64,000 nucleotides of DNA from Methanosarcina sp. MSH10X1 (GCF_004099695.1 NZ_SCHL01000009.1:62001-126000), one strand, 5' to 3'. Counted from the first letter of the stretch, positions 55,761 through 64,000 are shown. Numbers and translations: made by a program. Notes: generated by a model from the sequence alone, not told the origin.

Positions 55761-57356
55761 ATGGCTAAGAAGCTTGCACTGATTGCACTACTTGTCGTTT
55801 TCTCCGTTTCGGTTCTCTCAATGACTGCCCTTGCGGCAGAAGATGTTGAGTGGGTAGAAAAACATGATGGAACTAAACTGTACTGGGGGGAGTCGGTAAC
55901 AGTTGACGGCTATGTTATAAAGGCAGAAGATTTTAATGAAAACGAGCAGGTATACGTTTCAATCTCAAAAGAAGGGGAAAAATTGAAGACTGGTCCACTT
56001 TCCGCAGGTTCGGAAGTTGGATATGATGACAGGATAAAAGTTTATGCCCAGGAAGTGGATCCAAACTATGAAACTATCAAGAGGGACGGGAAGGAGTTAA
56101 GGACAGGAAACTGGAACCCTTATGCGGAACTTGACATCCTTGTGAGAGGGGAGCCAGAGTTTGACATCGAAGTTAAGACCCGAAAAGATACGTATGACTC
56201 CAAATCGTCTGGGGATAGCTGGATCGATGTATCAATAAAGCTTGAGAATGAAGGAGAAGCAAAGGCTGAAGATACAGTGCTAACCATCGATACGGCGGAA
56301 ATGGAAATCCTTAAAGGAAAGACTAAGTACACACTCGGGGAAGTTCTTAAAGAAGAGATTCTTGAACCTGTGAATATAACCCTGAAAGCTCCATCCCCCT
56401 GGATCGATACTGACCTGAACATAACCGCAAAAACTACATGCGTGGATGTAAGGGGCGATAAGTATGAGCACACAGGTTCGAAAGTCATAAAAATTGAGAA
56501 AAGATGGGGACTTGTTATTACAAAGAGCGTTACAAAAGATAACCACATGGGAAAACCTGTGCATGTCTCGGTCAGCGTACTGAATGAGGGACTCTGCGAT
56601 ATAAATGATATACTGCTTAAGGATTCGATCGTTTCCGGAATGCATCTTGAGAAAGCTGAGACACTCGAAAAGACCCTTTCCCTTAAGTCCGGGGAAAGAG
56701 CCGAAAAAGTTTTCGAATACGTCCTGATTCCGGAAATTCCCGGTGAATTTACCTTCCCGCAAACGCTGGCTACCTTTACCCTGCCCAACGGGCAGAATGG
56801 GGACTCAGGTTCGAATAATTCGGAAAAGATAAAAGTTTACGGTCCTGACATCGTGGTTACAAAAACCGTTAATAAGCAGCAGCTTAATCCCGGAGACGAA
56901 CTGACTGTGACTGTCACTGCAAAGAACACCGGGAACGTTGATGCAAGTGTAACATTAACCGATACTGTACCTCCCGAAGCTAAATTTATTAGCGGTGAAA
57001 CGAGCTTTAGGCAGGTTCTCGAAAGTGAGGGAGGTTCAGAAACAATAACTTACATCATGCAAATGCATAAGGAAGGAGAAATCCGCTTGCCAGCCTGCAA
57101 AGCAACTTTTCTCGATCTTGATAAGTATTCGGGAGAGGTTATTTCGGATGCTCCTGTCGTTTATGTAGGAGTACCGATTCCGCTTGAGGGGAGCAGTACG
57201 CAGCCTGAAGGAGTGACGGAATCCAACCAGGAGAAAAATAGCTCCTTAAACACCCTTGCGGAAGAAGATAACGGAGAAACTCCCGGATTCAGTGTTATCC
57301 TTGCTGCAGTGGGACTTCTCGCAGTCACAGGCTTCCTGAGAAAGAGGCGGACCTGA
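55761..57356 (+). CDS. Secreted surface protein with PGF-CTERM sorting signal
   Basis: A 531-residue exported protein: signal peptide LALIALLVVFSVSVLSMTAL-AA, then beta-rich domains. Three repeats of conserved-repeat (DUF11/CARDB-like) type show the pattern KSVTKDNHMGKPVHVSVSV, VTKTVNKQQLNPGDELTVTV with DTVPPEA. The tail TPGFSVILAAVGLLAVTGFL-RKRRT is a PGF-CTERM signal: PGF motif, membrane helix and basic end, the target of archaeosortase A for lipid attachment. GGAAGGT before the ATG. Likely part of the S-layer-associated cell envelope. Confidence 0.9.
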   Translation: MAKKLALIALLVVFSVSVLSMTALAAEDVEWVEKHDGTKLYWGESVTVDGYVIKAEDFNENEQVYVSISKEGEKLKTGPLSAGSEVGYDDRIKVYAQEVDPNYETIKRDGKELRTGNWNPYAELDILVRGEPEFDIEVKTRKDTYDSKSSGDSWIDVSIKLENEGEAKAEDTVLTIDTAEMEILKGKTKYTLGEVLKEEILEPVNITLKAPSPWIDTDLNITAKTTCVDVRGDKYEHTGSKVIKIEKRWGLVITKSVTKDNHMGKPVHVSVSVLNEGLCDINDILLKDSIVSGMHLEKAETLEKTLSLKSGERAEKVFEYVLIPEIPGEFTFPQTLATFTLPNGQNGDSGSNNSEKIKVYGPDIVVTKTVNKQQLNPGDELTVTVTAKNTGNVDASVTLTDTVPPEAKFISGETSFRQVLESEGGSETITYIMQMHKEGEIRLPACKATFLDLDKYSGEVISDAPVVYVGVPIPLEGSSTQPEGVTESNQEKNSSLNTLAEEDNGETPGFSVILAAVGLLAVTGFLRKRRT

Positions 57357-57742
57357 AGGGAATTCAGGATCAAAACCGGAAGAAGCGGAATAAGGAAAAC
57401 ATGGGTACATTTCCGTATTTCCCATGTTTCCTGTTTTCCTTAATTATTAAAAACCCGGTGGAGTTTTCCCTGCTGACAGTAGAACAAATTCCTGAGAAAC
57501 CAGTATAAACAGTTACAACCCGATTATAATATTCCATTTTAATCGTTTTCCGGTTGCTCTTTTCGCAACTAATTCCTTTTTCCGTTATCCGCCCTGATCT
57601 CCCCTGCCATTCATGAAAACAGGATATAATACGAATCTCTTACCTTGATTTACCTTAAGATACTTCTGCATAAAAGCAGAATACATTAGTAGCAGGAAGC
57701 TAATACCCCATTTATCTTCTTGAAATGAAAAAAGGAGTTAAG
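57357..57742 (+). terminator. Intergenic region with terminator-like hairpin
   Basis: GGAAAACATGGG (57394-57405) pairs with CCCATGTTTCC (57421-57431) around TACATTTCCGTATTT, followed by TGTTTTCCTTAATTATT. This probably ends the surface-protein transcript. The remaining 300 bases to the DHH gene are pyrimidine-rich with no recognised gene. Confidence 0.5.
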
Positions 57743-58720
57743 ATGAGAGAACCTCAGAATCGGCTTAAAGCGAAGACTCTGGTGCTTACTCACGGGGATT
57801 CGGATGGGATCTGCTCGGGTGCGATTGCAAAAACCGCTTATCCGGATGCGTATGTATATTTTACGAATCCTGTTAACCTTCTTGACAAACTAGGGCTTAT
57901 AGGGGATGTGAAAAACCTTATTATCTGCGATATCGCAATAGATGAGAGGAACTGTTCTGAACTGCATGCAGTACTTAACGGACTTGCGAAAAAATGCAAC
58001 CTTTACTATATCGACCACCACCCTCTGCCGGAGAGTTGTGAGAAAGAAAGCTGGTTTTATCATGAGCCTGGAGCCTGTTCCTCAGAACTGACCTACAGGC
58101 TTTTTGAGAGGCGCCTGAACAGGGATATGCGAAGGGTGGCAATCTACGGAGCAATTGGGGATTTCTGCGACAATACCTTACATGTAAAAAGCTGGGTCAA
58201 AGACTGGGATAAAAGAAACCTTTATTTTCAGGCAGGAACTCTGACCCAGGCTGTCCTGTATAAGGGAAAAGAGTATGAGTTCAAGAGAGGTCTGCTCGAA
58301 CCTCTCTCAAAGGATATTGTCCCTTCAAGTATTCCTCAACTGCTTGAGCTTGCCAGGGAAGCTGCTATTAACGAGGAAAAGATAAGGCTTTTCGTTAAGG
58401 AAAACGTGAGAGCCCTGAAAAACTGCGCGTATATTGTAAATACCAATAACTCCATTTCAAAGGCAGCAATCTATGCAGCCTCCTACGGCAGGCGTGACGT
58501 AGGGATTGCAGCCGAACACCGTGAGAGAAAGGAAGCTTACGACCTGAGTATCCGCTCGCGGGGAGAGGTCAACATAGACCGTATTCTTCGCTCAGTCGCC
58601 CCGAAATTCGGAGGAAGCGGCGGGGGACATCCTCTTGCGGCAGGCGCTCGAATACCTGAAAATTCCCTTAATGCATTTCTCAGGGCTTTTGATAAAGCAC
58701 TGGGAGAGGCAAATGGGTAA
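57743..58720 (+). CDS. DHH/DHHA1-family phosphoesterase (RecJ-like)
   Basis: A 325-residue phosphoesterase. LVLTHGDSDGICSGAIAK is motif I, LIICDIAIDERN motif II, LYYIDHHPLPES motif III with the DHH triad, and AIYGAIGDFCDNT motif IV. The C-terminal DHHA1 domain ends with PKFGGSGGGHPLAAGARIP. Such archaeal RecJ-like proteins degrade single-stranded DNA or RNA, or cyclic or nano-oligonucleotides. I use the second ATG (MREPQNRL), which has AAGGAG before it. Confidence 0.88.
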   Translation: MREPQNRLKAKTLVLTHGDSDGICSGAIAKTAYPDAYVYFTNPVNLLDKLGLIGDVKNLIICDIAIDERNCSELHAVLNGLAKKCNLYYIDHHPLPESCEKESWFYHEPGACSSELTYRLFERRLNRDMRRVAIYGAIGDFCDNTLHVKSWVKDWDKRNLYFQAGTLTQAVLYKGKEYEFKRGLLEPLSKDIVPSSIPQLLELAREAAINEEKIRLFVKENVRALKNCAYIVNTNNSISKAAIYAASYGRRDVGIAAEHRERKEAYDLSIRSRGEVNIDRILRSVAPKFGGSGGGHPLAAGARIPENSLNAFLRAFDKALGEANG

Positions 58721-58795
58721 AAAACAACGGGACCAGCAATCGGAGAGCTATGTGACCACGCCGGCGATGCCATTTACGATAAGAAATTTTAAAAA

Positions 58796-58830
58796 AATTT
58801 CGCTCAAGCCTTTTTTGAAAAGGCTTGGAG
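58796..58830. repeat. Solo unit of the dispersed repeat family
   Basis: AAATTTCGCTCAAGCC followed by TTTTTTGAAAAGGCTTGG: a single hairpin of the family seen at 21.6, 24.9, 36.5 and 46.2 kb. It runs directly into GGAGGT, the ribosome site of engB. Confidence 0.85.
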
Positions 58831-58840
58831 GTAAAAAACA

Positions 58841-59470
58841 ATGGAAACCAGTAAAACTGCAGCTGAAAACGGAGTAAGCTTTGAGATTATCTTTGTGGGC
58901 CGCTCAAACGTGGGCAAATCTTCTCTGCTTAGAGAGCTCTTCGGGGCAAAAGTAAGGGTTGGGAGACGCCCTGGCGTTACCCTGCGCCCCAGACATGCCC
59001 AGGCATCGGACCTTCTTATCACGGATATGCCTGGATTCGGCTTCATGAGCGGAGTGAAAGACCGGAAACAGGACATCGTAAAAGACCAGACAGTACGCTA
59101 TATTGAAAAGAATGCTGAAAGGATCAAAATCGGGGTTCTTGTAATAGACGGCCCGGCTTTCCCGCAAATCGTTGACCGCTGGGACTTGAGAGACCAGATC
59201 CCGGTAGATGTTGAGATGTTCGATTTCCTCAGGGAAGTAGGGATTGACACTATTGTCGTTTCAAATAAAATGGACAAAGTAAATGAAAACGAGTACGACC
59301 CTCTCCTTGACGAGATTGCAGTCCGGCTCGGGCTTGAGCCGCCCTGGAAGAACTGGAAGCATATCATAGCCCCTATAAGCGCCAAGAAAGGAGACCTGAA
59401 AGCCATAAAGGGCCTTCTTCGGGACAGGCTGCACGAAATGAAAAGGGATGACCTGTTCAAATATGTTTGA
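58841..59470 (+). CDS. engB: GTP-binding protein EngB
   Basis: A 209-residue TrmE-Era-EngA-EngB family GTPase. G1 is FVGRSNVGKSSLLREL, G2 the Thr in RPGVTLRP, G3 ITDMPGFGFMSG, G4 VVSNKMDKVN, G5 APISAKKGD. In bacteria the family (YsxC/YihA) assists large ribosomal subunit assembly; the archaeal role is presumed similar. GGAGGT eight bases before the ATG is provided by the edge of a repeat unit. Confidence 0.92.
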   Translation: METSKTAAENGVSFEIIFVGRSNVGKSSLLRELFGAKVRVGRRPGVTLRPRHAQASDLLITDMPGFGFMSGVKDRKQDIVKDQTVRYIEKNAERIKIGVLVIDGPAFPQIVDRWDLRDQIPVDVEMFDFLREVGIDTIVVSNKMDKVNENEYDPLLDEIAVRLGLEPPWKNWKHIIAPISAKKGDLKAIKGLLRDRLHEMKRDDLFKYV

Positions 59471-59508
59471 TTTTTGAAAAATTTTCATCCTTATGCATAA
59501 TTACCAAT

Positions 59509-59530
59509 AAATTCGCTCAGAAGCGAATTT
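59509..59530 (+). terminator. Hairpin after engB
   Basis: AAATTCGCT-CAGA-AGCGAATTT, a perfect 9-bp stem followed by TTACAG, 39 bases past the engB stop. On the minus strand the same sequence would overlap the decayed 5' end of a regulator gene copy. Confidence 0.55.
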
Positions 59531-59554
59531 TACAGTACTCAGTTTTACAATTCA

Positions 59555-59906
59555 AAAAGCCGTTCATTTCCTGTGCCGCTTCTACAGATTCTTTTTCTTA
59601 CTTTCTTATTTAATTCTTCTAATACAATATGTCACTTTATCTTCTACCGAATCTGGACATGGGTATTATTTTTGCTATTTTGTCATTCATAGAAGAGAAA
59701 AACATAAGATTATTTGCTAAAAGTAAGGTCGAATTTTTGACGTTGATTAGAACTCTGAAACTTCATTATTTTCGATGAAAAACCGGATCGACTTGATGAA
59801 TGTTAATCAGACTGATGAAAATTCATCGATGCAGTAAATTTATATTAGAAGTTTAAAACTGTTTTTAGTGTAATGTTCAGAGAAGACTGTAGGAGGAAAT
59901 ATTCTC
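59555..59906 (+). promoter_or_regulatory. Duplicated promoter block A, upstream of the UPF0228 gene
   Basis: About 330 bases similar to 61,640-61,960. Shared pieces in the same order: TTCATTT.CTTGT.CCGC.TCTACAG, AGATTATTTGCTAAAAGTA, GGTCGAATTTT, TGAAACTT..TATTTT.GATGAAAAA, GATGTTAATCA and AGAAGTTTAAAACT.TTTTT. It includes the palindrome GATGAA-AA-TTCATC. At its left end the complementary strand keeps ATGAACGGCTTT, the start of a lost divergent regulator gene (MNGF.. compared with MNDF.. of the intact one). Confidence 0.8.
59814..59827. promoter_or_regulatory. Palindromic operator candidate A
   Basis: GATGAA-AA-TTCATC, about 85 bases before the UPF0228 start and near a TTTATATT box. The same palindrome with a three-base centre occurs at the equivalent place before the C39-like peptidase gene. 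A dimeric winged-helix regulator could bind it. Confidence 0.5.
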
Positions 59907-60536
59907 ATGAAGAGAAAATCAATTTATAAAATATTGTTTATTGTCGCCGTTATTGTTTTTCTGATTATAATAACACTGGTACTGTTTGCTCCAACACACG
60001 TCGAGTCGAATATATCAGTTGACATGGAAACACCAGTTGATACGAAAACTCCAGTTAAAGAATCGCAAGTAGGTGGCTTAGCTATCCGGTTTGAAGAAGG
60101 AGTTACTGAACCCGAAGTTAAAAATATTCTTGAAAAATGCAACCTGAACATTTATATGCTGGATTATGATGTAGAAGATTTCGCAGACAAATATTACATA
60201 AAGGTAGATGAAAATAAAAGAGATGAATTGAAAAAAGAGGAGAATTGGAATGATCCTATATACCCTGAAATCCCTGAACCCAGATTCCCTGAAATCAATA
60301 AGGGAAATTATTATTACATTCTTGTATCCGAAGAAGGTCTCGAGGATGAAAGTTTTCTTAAGGTGATGGAAAAATATAATCTTCAGATTAAAAAGTTTGT
60401 CTGGTGTTATGTTCGTTTTGAAAAGTCGGATGACTCTAAGTATTGGATTCCAGAGAAAGATGCACTTAGAATAAAAAATAATCTTGAAATGAATGAAACG
60501 GTTTTGAATGTATTCCCTGACTATATTGATGGGTAA
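59907..60536 (+). CDS. UPF0228 family protein
   Basis: A 209-residue protein. One N-terminal membrane helix (ILFIVAVIVFLIIITLVLFA), a short Thr/Val-rich stalk with repeated TPV, then a soluble domain with VGGLAIRFEEGVTEPEVKNI, YDVEDFADKYYIKVDENKR, YYYILVSEEGLEDESFL and VLNVFPDYIDG. These match UPF0228, a family I know only from Methanosarcina, where it occurs in several copies. It is probably exported and anchored; function unknown. GTAGGAGG precedes the ATG. Its promoter region is shared with the peptidase gene 2 kb downstream. Confidence 0.85.
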   Translation: MKRKSIYKILFIVAVIVFLIIITLVLFAPTHVESNISVDMETPVDTKTPVKESQVGGLAIRFEEGVTEPEVKNILEKCNLNIYMLDYDVEDFADKYYIKVDENKRDELKKEENWNDPIYPEIPEPRFPEINKGNYYYILVSEEGLEDESFLKVMEKYNLQIKKFVWCYVRFEKSDDSKYWIPEKDALRIKNNLEMNETVLNVFPDYIDG

Positions 60537-60840
60537 ATTGTGCTGCAATGATAATTTATTGCAGAAGTGTTAATGAAATTATCGTGGAGTTACAAACAGA
60601 ATGTTGGAATGTGACTATTCAGCCTGAATAAAACAATATCAACAATGAACAAATTTCGATAAGTTATTTTTCTTAAATTGTTGACTATTGATTGCGTTTT
60701 TGTGTTTTTCATCAATAGTATCATACTTATCTTTCAAATAAGAATCGATATCAATCAACTGATTTTTGGGAGGCTGAATAGTTACAGCAAGTAGATAATT
60801 ATGGCACACCCAGGTATTTGAAATGAGAAAAACAGACACT
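60537..60840. other. Intergenic between convergent genes
   Basis: About 300 bases. CTGCAAT (60543-60549) and ATTGCAG (60558-60564) form a small hairpin just after the UPF0228 stop, a likely terminator. A short minus-strand frame crossing into the regulator gene has no family features and I reject it. Confidence 0.45.
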
Positions 60841-61650
60841 TCAAAAACAGGTCTCTGAGTGAATATTGCAGTACTCAAAAAGCCTCTCTCCCCACTCAAT
60901 AGCCTTCGGATCAGGACTGAACAAACCTGTGCTTATGTCATATTCAGTGCCGCGTTTTTTGTACAGGCTTAAGGCCAGGCATTTATCCGTAACAATTAGC
61001 CCCATTTTAATAGCTTCATTCATGAATTTTAACTTAAAATTGCTATAGTTTTTCAGTATCTCTAACTTTTCTATATAGAGCGATTGTTTTAATTCTTCTG
61101 CAACATGAAGAGGAACTATAAGTTCAACAGGAATTCCTTCTTTCACTTTTTCCGAGATAGAATCAGCATATCCTTCGGTTATTACGGATGATATGCCATA
61201 CATATGGTTTGCTTCTTTAATCATTTTTAATTGATTGCTGTAAGCACTAAGGATTTTTGTTCTTCTGTCACGGAGAATTTTAGAATTATAAAGGTATCCA
61301 ATCTCTTTTAGCAAAGGGTTGGGAATTCCTTCTAAATAATGTGTAGACCAGAAATATTTGAATTTATTAATCGTCCCAACTGTTGCAAAAGAGTCAGCTA
61401 CTCCTGAAGCCACAATTTTTCCTACAGGTGTTAGGTAATACTCGCGTCCTTTTGCTTCTATAAGGTGATCTTCTTCCAGTTTCCTGAGCTTTGGAATTAC
61501 TGCCTGAGATGTACTTCCTGTAATTTCACGCAACTGGGAAAGCTTTTTGCTGGTATCGTTTAATGATAGAAGTATCTCGGTTAGAAGTCTTGACCTGTAT
61601 ATTGCCTGAACATCATCTTCCATTTCATTATATATTTCGAAGTCATTCAT
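60841..61650 (-). CDS. Winged-helix regulator with DUF1724 (Msr-like)
   Basis: A 269-residue transcription regulator. An N-terminal winged helix (residues ~20-85: LTEILLSLNDTSKKLSQLRE, STSQAVIPKLRKLEEDHLIE) is followed by a DUF1724 domain (~125-265, with GIPVELIVPLHVAEELKQSL, FKLKFMNEAIKMGLIVTDKC and GLFSPDPKAIEWGERLFEYC). In M. acetivorans DUF1724 proteins (Msr) control methyltransferase genes. It is divergent from the peptidase gene across promoter block B, so it probably controls that gene and, through the copied block, the UPF0228 gene. Confidence 0.85.
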   Translation of the reverse strand: MNDFEIYNEMEDDVQAIYRSRLLTEILLSLNDTSKKLSQLREITGSTSQAVIPKLRKLEEDHLIEAKGREYYLTPVGKIVASGVADSFATVGTINKFKYFWSTHYLEGIPNPLLKEIGYLYNSKILRDRRTKILSAYSNQLKMIKEANHMYGISSVITEGYADSISEKVKEGIPVELIVPLHVAEELKQSLYIEKLEILKNYSNFKLKFMNEAIKMGLIVTDKCLALSLYKKRGTEYDISTGLFSPDPKAIEWGERLFEYCNIHSETCF

Positions 61651-61970
61651 TTTCTTGTCGCCGCATCTACAGATTTTTTATTACTTCCTTATCAAATTAT
61701 TTTAGCACAATATATTCTTTTCTTTTGTTGGGGAATGTTTGTTGCTACCTTTTTTGTTAATTTTATAGCTTGGTGAAGAAAAGTACTTCAAGATTATTTG
61801 CTAAAAGTAGGTCGAATTTTAGATGTCGATTAAAGCTATGAAACTTTACTATTTTTGATGAAAAAGAGAAGTGGTTTAATGGATGTTAATCAAGCTGATG
61901 AAAAATTCATCACCGTAATAAATGTATAGGAGAAGTTTAAAACTATTTTTGAATGTGAAGTTCAAACTAA
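61640..61970. promoter_or_regulatory. Duplicated promoter block B, between regulator and peptidase genes
   Basis: Counterpart of block A. Begins at the regulator start codon and runs toward the peptidase gene with the same ordered motifs (CTACAGATT, AGATTATTTGCTAAAAGTA, GGTCGAATTTTA, GATGTTAATCA, palindrome, AGAAGTTTAAAACTATTTTT). Here it is a true divergent intergenic region. GTGAAGTTCAAACTAACCTTCCAG..GAACTTCAC (61946-62000) adds a long hairpin-forming inverted pair not present in block A. Confidence 0.8.
61897..61911. promoter_or_regulatory. Palindromic operator candidate B
   Basis: GATGAA-AAA-TTCATC at the position equivalent to candidate A, followed by a TAATAAATGTATAGG TATA-like stretch. 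Confidence 0.5.
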
Positions 61971-61999
61971 CCTTCCAGAGCACATTTGAACTTCACATG
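61947..61999 (+). promoter_or_regulatory. Inverted repeat in the peptidase leader
   Basis: TGTGAAGTTCAAA near 61947 and TTTGAACTTCACA near 61987 are exact complements of 13 bases around a ~27-base loop. It lies in the presumed 5' leader of the peptidase gene, after the TATA-like stretch, and could be an RNA hairpin or an attenuator. Confidence 0.6.
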
Positions 62000-62083
62000 C
62001 CCTGAGGCAAGGAAATGATAGCTTTAAGAGTACTTAAGGTTTGTCTGGGCCTTGTCTCCTGGGAATTAAACAGGAGAGAAAAT

Positions 62084-63295
62084 ATGACAATGAAATATAA
62101 ATTTAGAGTAAGTGTATTACTTGCAGGATTGCTATTGCTGAGTGTTGTATACATTCTACCTGCATCTGCATCTATCGATGAAAAAACAATCGAAAAGAAT
62201 TATGTTTCATTACAAGAGGCAGAAGTACATGCCAAAACAGCTCTCTACGATTTCTTATTGATTGGTGCCCCAGGCTCCAACTCTACGGATTGGACAAATG
62301 CAACAGTAAATTCAGATCCCCTTATAATATACGATATTAATGGGAAAAAACTTTTTTACCAATTTACAGTTGAAAATAATGGGATAAATATAGGGGCAAT
62401 AAAAGTTGCTGCAAGCAAAGTGCTTGGAGATCCCATCCGGACAATAGAATTCTATTCTGAGGACTGGAATATGAAAACGGAAGTTGAGAATGCAAAAAAA
62501 TTGGTCGCAAAAGATCATAAAAATGCAAATGTTACATCCTCAAAAGTTGTATGTTATAGCTACCCGAAAATAGGAATAATGGCAGACATCCAAGAATCCA
62601 AATCTAAAGAAGAAAAAAGCAGATTGTTTGATTTCTCTGGTTCTAAAATTATTGACGAGAGCATAAATAATACTAACTCTTCTGAAGTTACTGAGGTATG
62701 GTCATTATATTCGGAAATACCTGACGAAGAGCTAGAGGAACGACTAACAGCTTGGGATGAATATGATAAACGAGCAAAGAAAATTGCAGATAATAATTTT
62801 GAAGGAAACGAAGTCCAGATAAAGATTGCTGGAGTTCAAAAAACACTTCCTTTCACTCGTTATGTGCAAGAAAACGACTATTATTGTGCACCAGCTACAG
62901 GAAAGATGATTGCAAAATACTATAACGTCACACATACTCAGAGCTATATCGCTGATAAGATGCTTGTAGTAGCTGGTCTAGGAACTAGTGAAAATGATCA
63001 AGTCAAGTATTACAAATACAGTTATGGGTTAGACAAATGGGGTTCTTACAGCGACTCTAGCCCAACATGGCTTGAAGCTAAAAACGAAATCTATGCCAAT
63101 AGACCTTTAGCAACTTTGCTAAGTAGCGGTCATACAAGAGCTTGTGCAGGCTACTGTCAGGGAACTGATGGAAAGTATTACCTGTACATATATGATCCCT
63201 GGAATCCCAGTTTTGGAACTAAATATCCGGGAGGCATATATTGGGAAAACTGGGACTCAATTGCTCATAGCCATCATATCATTGTTAAGGACTAA
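62084..63295 (+). CDS. Exported C39-like (papain-fold) cysteine peptidase
   Basis: A 403-residue protein with signal peptide (SVLLAGLLLLSVVYILPASA), a ~190-residue N-terminal domain with a YVSLQEAEVHAKTALYDFL start, and a C-terminal peptidase domain. Likely catalytic residues: Cys268 in DYYCAPATGKMIAKYY, His350 in SSGHTRACAGYC and Asp371 in YIYDPWNP. This order matches Peptidase_C39_2. AGGAGA before the chosen ATG; an upstream frame extension lacks a ribosome site. The substrate is unknown: adhesin or peptide processing are options. Regulated by the divergent DUF1724 protein, by inference. Confidence 0.85.
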   Translation: MTMKYKFRVSVLLAGLLLLSVVYILPASASIDEKTIEKNYVSLQEAEVHAKTALYDFLLIGAPGSNSTDWTNATVNSDPLIIYDINGKKLFYQFTVENNGINIGAIKVAASKVLGDPIRTIEFYSEDWNMKTEVENAKKLVAKDHKNANVTSSKVVCYSYPKIGIMADIQESKSKEEKSRLFDFSGSKIIDESINNTNSSEVTEVWSLYSEIPDEELEERLTAWDEYDKRAKKIADNNFEGNEVQIKIAGVQKTLPFTRYVQENDYYCAPATGKMIAKYYNVTHTQSYIADKMLVVAGLGTSENDQVKYYKYSYGLDKWGSYSDSSPTWLEAKNEIYANRPLATLLSSGHTRACAGYCQGTDGKYYLYIYDPWNPSFGTKYPGGIYWENWDSIAHSHHIIVKD

Positions 63296-63491
63296 AAAAT
63301 GAAAGTACTTAAAATGTTTTTATTTTAAAATGGGGAATATTTTTTGGCTTGTGTACTTGAGTTAACAAAACCAGTACACTAAGCCACTTATTTATTAAAA
63401 ATAGTTAGGAATTTATTAAATATATTCATTATTCTTGATTTCAAATCAATTTTTCAACATAATTTCAACATAAATAGATGAGGGGTATACT

Positions 63492-64000
63492 TTGAAAAAA
63501 GCAACCACAACTATTTTTATCTGTCTGCTGACAGTATCGTTAGTTTTTATCTCCGGATGTACTAATAATCAAGATAATTTAGCCCAAGGAAAGAATCCTG
63601 GGAACATAACAAATGAAACTCCAAACAAAAATGTTTCAGATAAAGAATATGCAAGCAACATAAATTCTCTTAAGCTTGAAAGGCAGAATTCTTTTTCCAA
63701 ATATTATAGTAAAGAAAATCCGCAGTTTGAAGCAAATGTTCCTTCTTATTCTTTGCCTATTGAAGCTTTCGAAATTTCAAATTATGATAATTTCACCCAG
63801 AAAATTCCCCTCACGAATGAAAGCAGGGATTTATTGTACAAAAATGGGTTTGTTGTGATTGAAAATGGAACTGAAAATCTGTTTACAGCAGGGCAGATAC
63901 TGGTAAATTATACTTACCGGGATCTGAAAGTAGCTGATATTCCTATCTTTATCACATCAGATTCTCTCCTTCATCTTTACCATATCCAGTTTGACGAGAC
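63492..64000 (+). CDS. DUF3160 lipoprotein (partial, runs off the window)
   Basis: The first 169 residues of a lipoprotein. TTG start after AGGGGT; signal peptide with lipobox FISGC (Cys at residue 23); a Asn/Lys-rich linker; then LPIEAFEISNYDNF, YKNGFVVIENGTENLFTAG, LKVADIPIFITSDSLLHLYH and IQFDE, the conserved start of DUF3160. DUF3160 proteins are large exported proteins of unknown function, common in Methanosarcina. 196 bp after the peptidase gene, possibly co-regulated. Confidence 0.85.
   Translation, partial: MKKATTTIFICLLTVSLVFISGCTNNQDNLAQGKNPGNITNETPNKNVSDKEYASNINSLKLERQNSFSKYYSKENPQFEANVPSYSLPIEAFEISNYDNFTQKIPLTNESRDLLYKNGFVVIENGTENLFTAGQILVNYTYRDLKVADIPIFITSDSLLHLYHIQFDE

Follow-up and report, generated by a model that had tools for sequence, protein, structure and literature searches.

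Why do two similar DNA blocks stand before unrelated genes for exported proteins in a Methanosarcina genome? We analysed a window of 64,000 nucleotides from Methanosarcina sp. MSH10X1 (GCF_004099695.1 NZ_SCHL01000009.1:62001-126000). An earlier sequence-only reading had noticed ordered motifs common to a block before a UPF0228 gene (block A) and a block before a C39-like peptidase gene (block B), and had explained them by the duplication of a regulator-plus-promoter unit. The blocks, their putative promoter elements and the neighbouring genes are as follows.

59,556-59,567, minus strand: remnant at the left end of block A of the start (MNGF) of a FilR1-type regulator that has been lost, aligned to MNDF
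59,557-59,879, plus strand: block A, an intergenic block of the regulator/effector kind, ahead of the UPF0228 gene (73% identity to block B; tree)
59,907-60,536, plus strand: UPF0228 protein with N-terminal membrane anchor (Pfam PF05727, E 1.2e-35, 122.6 bits, cut-off 25)
60,841-61,650, minus strand: winged-helix regulator of the FilR1/DUF1724 type, pointing away from the effector gene (Pfam)
61,640-61,964, plus strand: block B, divergent promoter block separating the regulator and peptidase genes (alignment, genus matches, co-evolution with the regulator)
61,709-61,717, minus strand: putative regulator TATA box (conserved columns ACATAATATATTC, by inspection)
61,920-61,929, plus strand: putative effector-mRNA TATA box, ~24-30 nt before the leader described below (conserved TAAATGTATAGG)
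62,084-63,295, plus strand: exported C39-like cysteine peptidase, signal peptide and C39_2 domain (PF13529, Peptidase_C39_2, E 2.2e-10, 41.7 bits, cut-off 24)
63,492-64,000, plus strand: DUF3160 lipoprotein, start only (Pfam)

Local alignment of the two blocks (59,557-59,879 against 61,640-61,964) gave 250 identical columns out of 341 (73%) and a score of 213, compared with a mean of 22.8 (s.d. 2.8, maximum 34) for 500 dinucleotide-shuffled pairs. A blastn search inside the window returned the same match with E ~4e-43. The common motifs therefore reflect true homology, and identity at background level is excluded. Absence from relatives is excluded as well: another contig (C7) of the same genome has a third copy at its edge, and 23 of the 31 Methanosarcina genomes have matches, with up to ten copies each (ten in G010). 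Most of these matches are 73-87% identical and span most or all of the 325 bp. Plasmids had no match, and the block was rejected as a plasmid element.

The protein names given by the sequence-only reading (UPF0228, DUF1724 regulator, C39-like peptidase, DUF3160) were borne out by Pfam. The regulator contains FilR1_middle (the former DUF1724; PF08350, E 2.7e-26, 92.5 bits, cut-off 27) and an HVO_A0261_N winged helix (PF25213, E 9.4e-9, 35.5 bits, cut-off 35). The peptidase start is best placed at 62,084, and its N-terminus is signal-like. A search for relatives of the regulator and the peptidase among solved structures found none. Elsewhere in the window, the exported protein encoded at 55,761-57,356 carries a PGF-CTERM anchor as well as DUF11/CARDB repeats. 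Beyond the window end, a second UPF0228 gene follows the DUF3160 gene (L057:15935-16579), so that the order is C39 - DUF3160 - UPF0228.

The repeated block is one of dozens of Methanosarcina copies of a regulator-plus-promoter cassette. The usual layout of well-preserved copies is a FilR1-type regulator on the minus strand, the block, and an exported-protein gene on the plus strand; in most of them the left end of the block and the regulator start codon overlap, and the exported-protein gene begins ~77 or 120 bp past the block. This recurrent layout confirms that a regulator-plus-promoter unit exists and has multiplied before unrelated exported-protein genes. As had been suspected, the block was found elsewhere in the genus directly before UPF0228, C39-peptidase and DUF3160 genes, and relatives of the DUF3160 gene are directly preceded by the block (L044) or by the leader described below (L153). 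Regulator distances correlate with block distances (Mantel r 0.75; 0 of 2000 permutations as high), whereas effector class is unrelated to block distance (p=0.69). Regulator and block therefore move together as one unit, and the effectors are exchanged.

How block A came to stand without a regulator can be read from its left end, where the minus strand (59,567-59,556) is ATG AAC GGC TTT; the encoded MNGF aligns with the regulator start MNDF, as the sequence-only reading had seen. No regulator sequence was found beyond MNGF at block A. The EngB GTPase gene ends 87 bp before the block, and six related loci (L043, L048, L053, L054, L055 and L068) have kept a regulator between EngB and the block. 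In a related locus of genome G021 the order is still EngB, broken regulator, block, UPF0228, and we conclude from it that block A lost its regulator. Most simply, block A is an old EngB-site copy whose regulator disappeared except for MNGF. In the block tree, A and the EngB-site copies from other species fall together in a clade of 21 copies (support 0.999), with B outside, which argues that the lineages of A and B are older than the species. Judged by this tree, A and B are old paralogues. Of the proposed duplication before a different exported-protein gene, the multiplied unit and the lost regulator at A were retained, and recent local copying was not. A recent tandem duplication from A to B was rejected on the position of B outside the A clade.

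Cassette effectors have a signal peptide in common (MIANRKFGIGALLAAMLLVGMAFVPAVSAQ or close to it) and differ in the mature part. Several of those linked to the block have no known domains; the others are C39-like peptidases, M12 reprolysin-like and M10 matrixin metallopeptidases, a possible serine protease and a glycine-rich hydrophobic family that comes with a 61-aa membrane protein. The cassettes might be toxin-immunity or protease-inhibitor competition modules, in which a variable secreted effector is accompanied by a small membrane partner. Diverse effectors behind one signal peptide would fit this idea, and so would the recurrent gene pairs: UPF0228 lies 4-31 bp behind a C39-like peptidase in four loci (L042, L074, L108, L150), family c2 occurs with the 61-aa membrane protein in six loci, and c1 occurs with c4 or c0. 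The pairs of C39 peptidase and UPF0228 suggest an effector and a protective (inhibitor or immunity) partner. However, many of the products that can be recognised are ordinary peptidases, which could serve the nutrition of the cell, and the AlphaFold model of UPF0228 is too poor to compare. We therefore regard competition modules as a tentative reading and on the whole a doubtful one. An inhibitor fold for UPF0228 was unsupported, the AlphaFold model being unusable (mean pLDDT 49, pTM 0.32) and a search among solved structures having found no relative. A separate observation is that c2, an exported protein with a glycine-rich hydrophobic C-terminus, is followed by the 61-aa membrane protein c5 in L039, L059, L063, L064 and L065; this arrangement resembles a bacteriocin-immunity pair.

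The sequence-only reading had overlooked that the cassette is genus-wide and that block B runs on into a leader RNA that is structured and bears an antisense promoter motif. It had ended block B at 61,970, but in an alignment of 46 copies conservation runs on past the block to the peptidase start codon at 62,084. The leader family was defined by three helices (P1, P2 and P3) with compensatory change, a match to the covariance models R1 and R2, and a start codon within ~20 nt. Such a leader was found in the window behind block B and not at block A. Its parts are listed below.

61,951-62,083, plus strand: structured 5' leader RNA of the peptidase mRNA (R1 132.5 bits, R2 119.3 bits; family covariation)
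61,953-61,966 and 61,985-61,998, strand not assigned: arms of the palindromic hairpin P1 (fold, covariation)
62,004-62,012, plus strand: P2 5' arm GAGGCAAGG, also Shine-Dalgarno of the upstream ORF (fold, covariation)
62,015-62,083, plus strand: upstream ORF, beginning MIALRVLKVC... and sharing the reading frame of the peptidase (translation)
62,031-62,038, minus strand: putative antisense-RNA TATA box CTTAAGTA, a weak match in the window copy, with an RNA start near 62,008
62,050-62,058, plus strand: P2 3' arm CCTTGTCTC, of which CTC is common to the anti-Shine-Dalgarno hairpin P4 (fold)
62,056-62,061 and 62,071-62,076, plus strand: P4 hairpin CTCCTG/CAGGAG (swap tests, fold of the window copy)

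The leader folds into P1 (GUGAAGUUCAAA/UUUGAACUUCAC), P2 (GAGGCAAGG/CCUUGCCUC), which encloses P3, and P4, where the Shine-Dalgarno sequence replaces the P2 5' arm as the partner of CCUC or CUCC in the P2 3' arm. In the predicted fold of the window copy, P4 sequesters the Shine-Dalgarno at 62,072-62,076. When conserved RNA structure was sought on either strand of the part of block B that directly precedes the leader, P1 alone was convincing. The best TATA match upstream of the wide leader members peaks at -24. The leader is absent from the UPF0228-type copies, block A among them, and is thus not needed for every target. In one leader (L070:5682-5881) unrelated sequence, which may be an insertion element, takes over after P1. 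Effector family c14 (L049:4795-5247, L059:16612-17055) has no signal peptide and leaders without a stable P4; in no other block-type copy were both rules seen to be broken at once.

Covariation supports the helices. In 96 model-aligned leaders, 21 of the 28 base pairs have two-sided (compensatory) changes and 90.3% of the cells are paired, a value that drops to 56-62% after a slide by one column. Cells with two-sided changes numbered 145 against 44.6 in shuffles, and on all five measures 0 of 500 shuffles did as well; these counts are of cells, not of independent events, and the alignment was fitted to the structure and hence leans towards it. The swap test is independent of the alignment. Here P4 arms from the same leader paired better than swapped arms in two separate sets (-10.3 against -8.5 and -9.35 against -7.37 kcal/mol; 0 of 5000 permutations). 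From folding and covariation together, most cassette copies, block B included, are predicted to end in a previously uncatalogued RNA switch. No Rfam family matched the leader except RF02792 on the opposite strand, so that Rfam 15 holds nothing of the family beyond this one antisense branch, and no earlier description of the family was found in the open-access literature.

The leader occurs far beyond the FilR1-type regulator. R1 leaders were found in 27 of the 31 Methanosarcina genomes and in 92 of 186 genomes (18 of 27 genera) of the order. In a sample of the phylum 83 of 393 genomes matched, with R2 adding other families, including Methanoculleus. Covariance-model leaders thus span the Methanosarcinales and Methanomicrobiales (named matches are in Methanosarcina, Methanohalophilus and Methanoculleus), with up to 35 copies per genome. 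The other 310 of the 393 genomes had no match at E 1e-4, which, although the model E-values are rough, argues for the specificity of the model; viral contigs searched for the leader pattern lacked it. Most leader copies have no FilR-type regulator nearby, so that the regulator looks like a local extra within a larger set under RNA control. By a simple hydrophobicity rule, a signal-like N-terminus was found in 63 of 64 leader products (members with an ORF starting within 20 nt) as opposed to 10 of 43 window ORFs, and in 20 of 22 products from more distant genomes. After removal of the signal peptide, 110 distinct products fell into 34 unrelated clusters of mature parts, with peptidases as the largest recognisable class.

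The opposite strand of the leader carries a signal of its own. A canonical TATA-like element in antisense orientation lies within P3 in 64 of 82 wide leaders (7.4 expected) and in 33 of 38 block-type leaders (3.6 expected), while the sense strand of the same stretch shows no excess (8 against 9.2 expected). Its position predicts an RNA start near leader nt 58. The 5' end of sRNA162, which was mapped by RACE in Methanosarcina mazei (PMC3510493), falls at leader nt 55-59 in 18 loci, and all ten of the best RF02792 loci that were fetched have an R2 leader opposite, with the sRNA 5' end at about nt 56. RF02792 also matches another locus of Methanosarcina sp. MSH10X1 (C55:46,749); in the window (57,000-64,000) it gave no match at E up to 1 (family cut-off 78 bits). 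In M. mazei the mapped 5' ends of sRNA162 and MM2442 mRNA overlap by 65 nt, and binding occurs via sRNA162 nt 1-65 (PMC3510493). The present system resembles sRNA162/MM2442 (RF02792) in combining an antisense RNA and an mRNA leader with overlapping 5' ends, sORFs and a nearby ArsR-type regulator. It differs in that sRNA162/MM2442 was presented as an isolated case (plus sRNA171), with a model of the sRNA strand only; the leader family, the P2/P4 switch, the spread to other genera and orders and the link to exported proteins do not appear in that paper (PMC3510493). Mispairs, again counted as cells, differ between the helices: P1 has 92 A.C and 42 G.U, pointing to the antisense RNA (where A.C becomes G.U), whereas P3 has 106 G.U and 13 A.C, pointing to the sense RNA, with P2 in the same direction. 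P1 therefore seems to be kept as an antisense hairpin, and P2 and P3 as sense structures. An antisense RNA may be made in the window copy as well, although the poor TATA match there speaks against it.

We propose that the leader serves the antisense-gated translation of inducible secreted proteins. The exported-protein mRNA of a complete cassette, such as that of block B, would start with a ~130-nt leader acting as a two-state translation switch. In one state the C-rich segment (GCCUC or CUCC) would pair with the upstream GAGGC arm (P2) and leave the effector Shine-Dalgarno open; in the other it would pair with the Shine-Dalgarno itself (P4) and close the site. The opposite-strand promoter inside the leader would produce an antisense RNA, the first ~58 nt of which would span P1 and extend into the 5' arm of P2. 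Binding of this RNA would prevent P2, shut P4 and stop translation. The regulator would set transcription of the cassette and the antisense RNA its translation. We give a probability of roughly 0.6 to the reading that such an antisense-gated two-state leader, a FilR1-type regulator and an exchangeable exported gene together explain the window. The products presumably work extracellularly, as inducible hydrolases or as factors in competition.

Folding of 89 leaders agreed with this scheme, the values being folding-energy predictions that assume full hybridisation. In free leaders P2 formed and most copies had an open Shine-Dalgarno, the accessibility of which had a mean of 0.53 and a median of 0.64 (window copy 0.69). 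Blocking nt 1-48 (P1 alone) gave a mean of 0.60, and blocking nt 1-59, which broke P2 and let P4 form, a mean of 0.08 (window copy 0.001); in the latter case accessibility fell by more than 0.1 in 67 of 89 leaders and rose in none. In the more distant leaders the mean went from 0.44 to 0.05, several being closed in both states. In many leaders the fold is partly or fully closed even with nothing bound, so default states appear to differ. On these predictions antisense binding would repress through P4. The hok/sok and plasmid copy-number RNAs also use complementary hairpins on two strands, with antisense binding altering access to the Shine-Dalgarno. They would work like the proposed leader, the likeness being one of mechanism; the leader is set apart by its archaeal host, its chromosomal secreted-protein families and the antisense promoter motif within it.

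A rival for the trigger is attenuation by a short upstream ORF, in which ribosomes on the GAGG of P2 would close the effector site and ribosomes at the uORF stop inside P4 would open it, so that the leader could report translation or secretion status. The uORF Shine-Dalgarno coincides with the P2 arm, the frame is open for at least 14 codons in 56 of 72 leaders with a repeated peptide M(I/L)ALRxLKACLILPxE, and sORFs were noted in the MM2442 5' UTR by Jager et al. (PMC3510493). Yet the start codon is canonical in only 51 of 72 leaders, many have UGA or a frameshift after 3-4 codons, some Methanoculleus-type leaders have no start codon at this position, and the window uORF runs into the peptidase. 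Attenuation is accordingly unlikely, and the uORF was rejected as a universal trigger on the lack of start-codon conservation. The window uORF has no stop, so a longer peptidase beginning MIALRVLKVC is possible; the same holds for a matrixin copy in L059 (4061-4672). Weighing against the antisense-gated switch, overexpression of sRNA162 in M. mazei lowered MM2442 mRNA only slightly, and its 5' fragment had no obvious phenotype (PMC3510493).

The model of the sequence-only reading, in which the block is a DNA promoter with regulator operators and transcription alone sets the regulon, draws on the conservation of the block, its co-inheritance with the regulator and dyads such as TGATGAAAAATTCATCA just 5' of the putative TATA box. 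FilR1 of Methanosaeta harundinacea, which has the FilR1_middle domain in common with the window regulator, binds its own promoter in ChIP and EMSA (PMC3991700). FilR1 differs in having a receiver domain and belonging to a two-component system; a Pfam search found no receiver domain in the window regulator. The regulator probably binds the block, but a purely transcriptional model leaves the covariation, the common anti-Shine-Dalgarno and the many regulator-less leaders unexplained, and we consider it quite improbable. Transcriptional control is likely to complement the RNA switch and not to replace it.

A metabolite riboswitch or RNA thermometer, both of which usually act through two exclusive helices around the Shine-Dalgarno, is very unlikely, as the helices vary, no long invariant pocket was seen apart from short P1 arms and a GCCC.GAGGC stretch (the alignment has few invariant positions beyond the stems) and the embedded antisense promoter motif and sRNA162 offer a ready trigger. 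In anti-Shine-Dalgarno riboswitches, too, one segment has two alternative partners, an upstream arm and the Shine-Dalgarno; the leader has this alternative pairing, and differs in that no ligand pocket was seen and that an RNA is its proposed trigger.

The antisense-gated leader would extend well past this window. It is conceivable, at somewhat less than even odds, that one such switch class controls much of the inducible secretome of Methanosarcinales and Methanomicrobiales (peptidases and possibly competition toxins with partner proteins), with new secreted proteins attached by recombination behind a constant signal peptide. To our knowledge, archaea have few known cis-regulatory RNAs whose mechanism can be tested. 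The present family is abundant, almost wholly linked to exported proteins and found in a genus amenable to genetics. With it, sRNA162/MM2442 is no longer a lone case but part of a family, and there is a way to approach what methanogens secrete and when.

At five loci (L148, L150, L158, L115 and L159) R1 matches both strands around a common P1, as if divergent leaders shared the palindrome. Several of the upstream minus-strand genes at such pairs also encode exported proteins.
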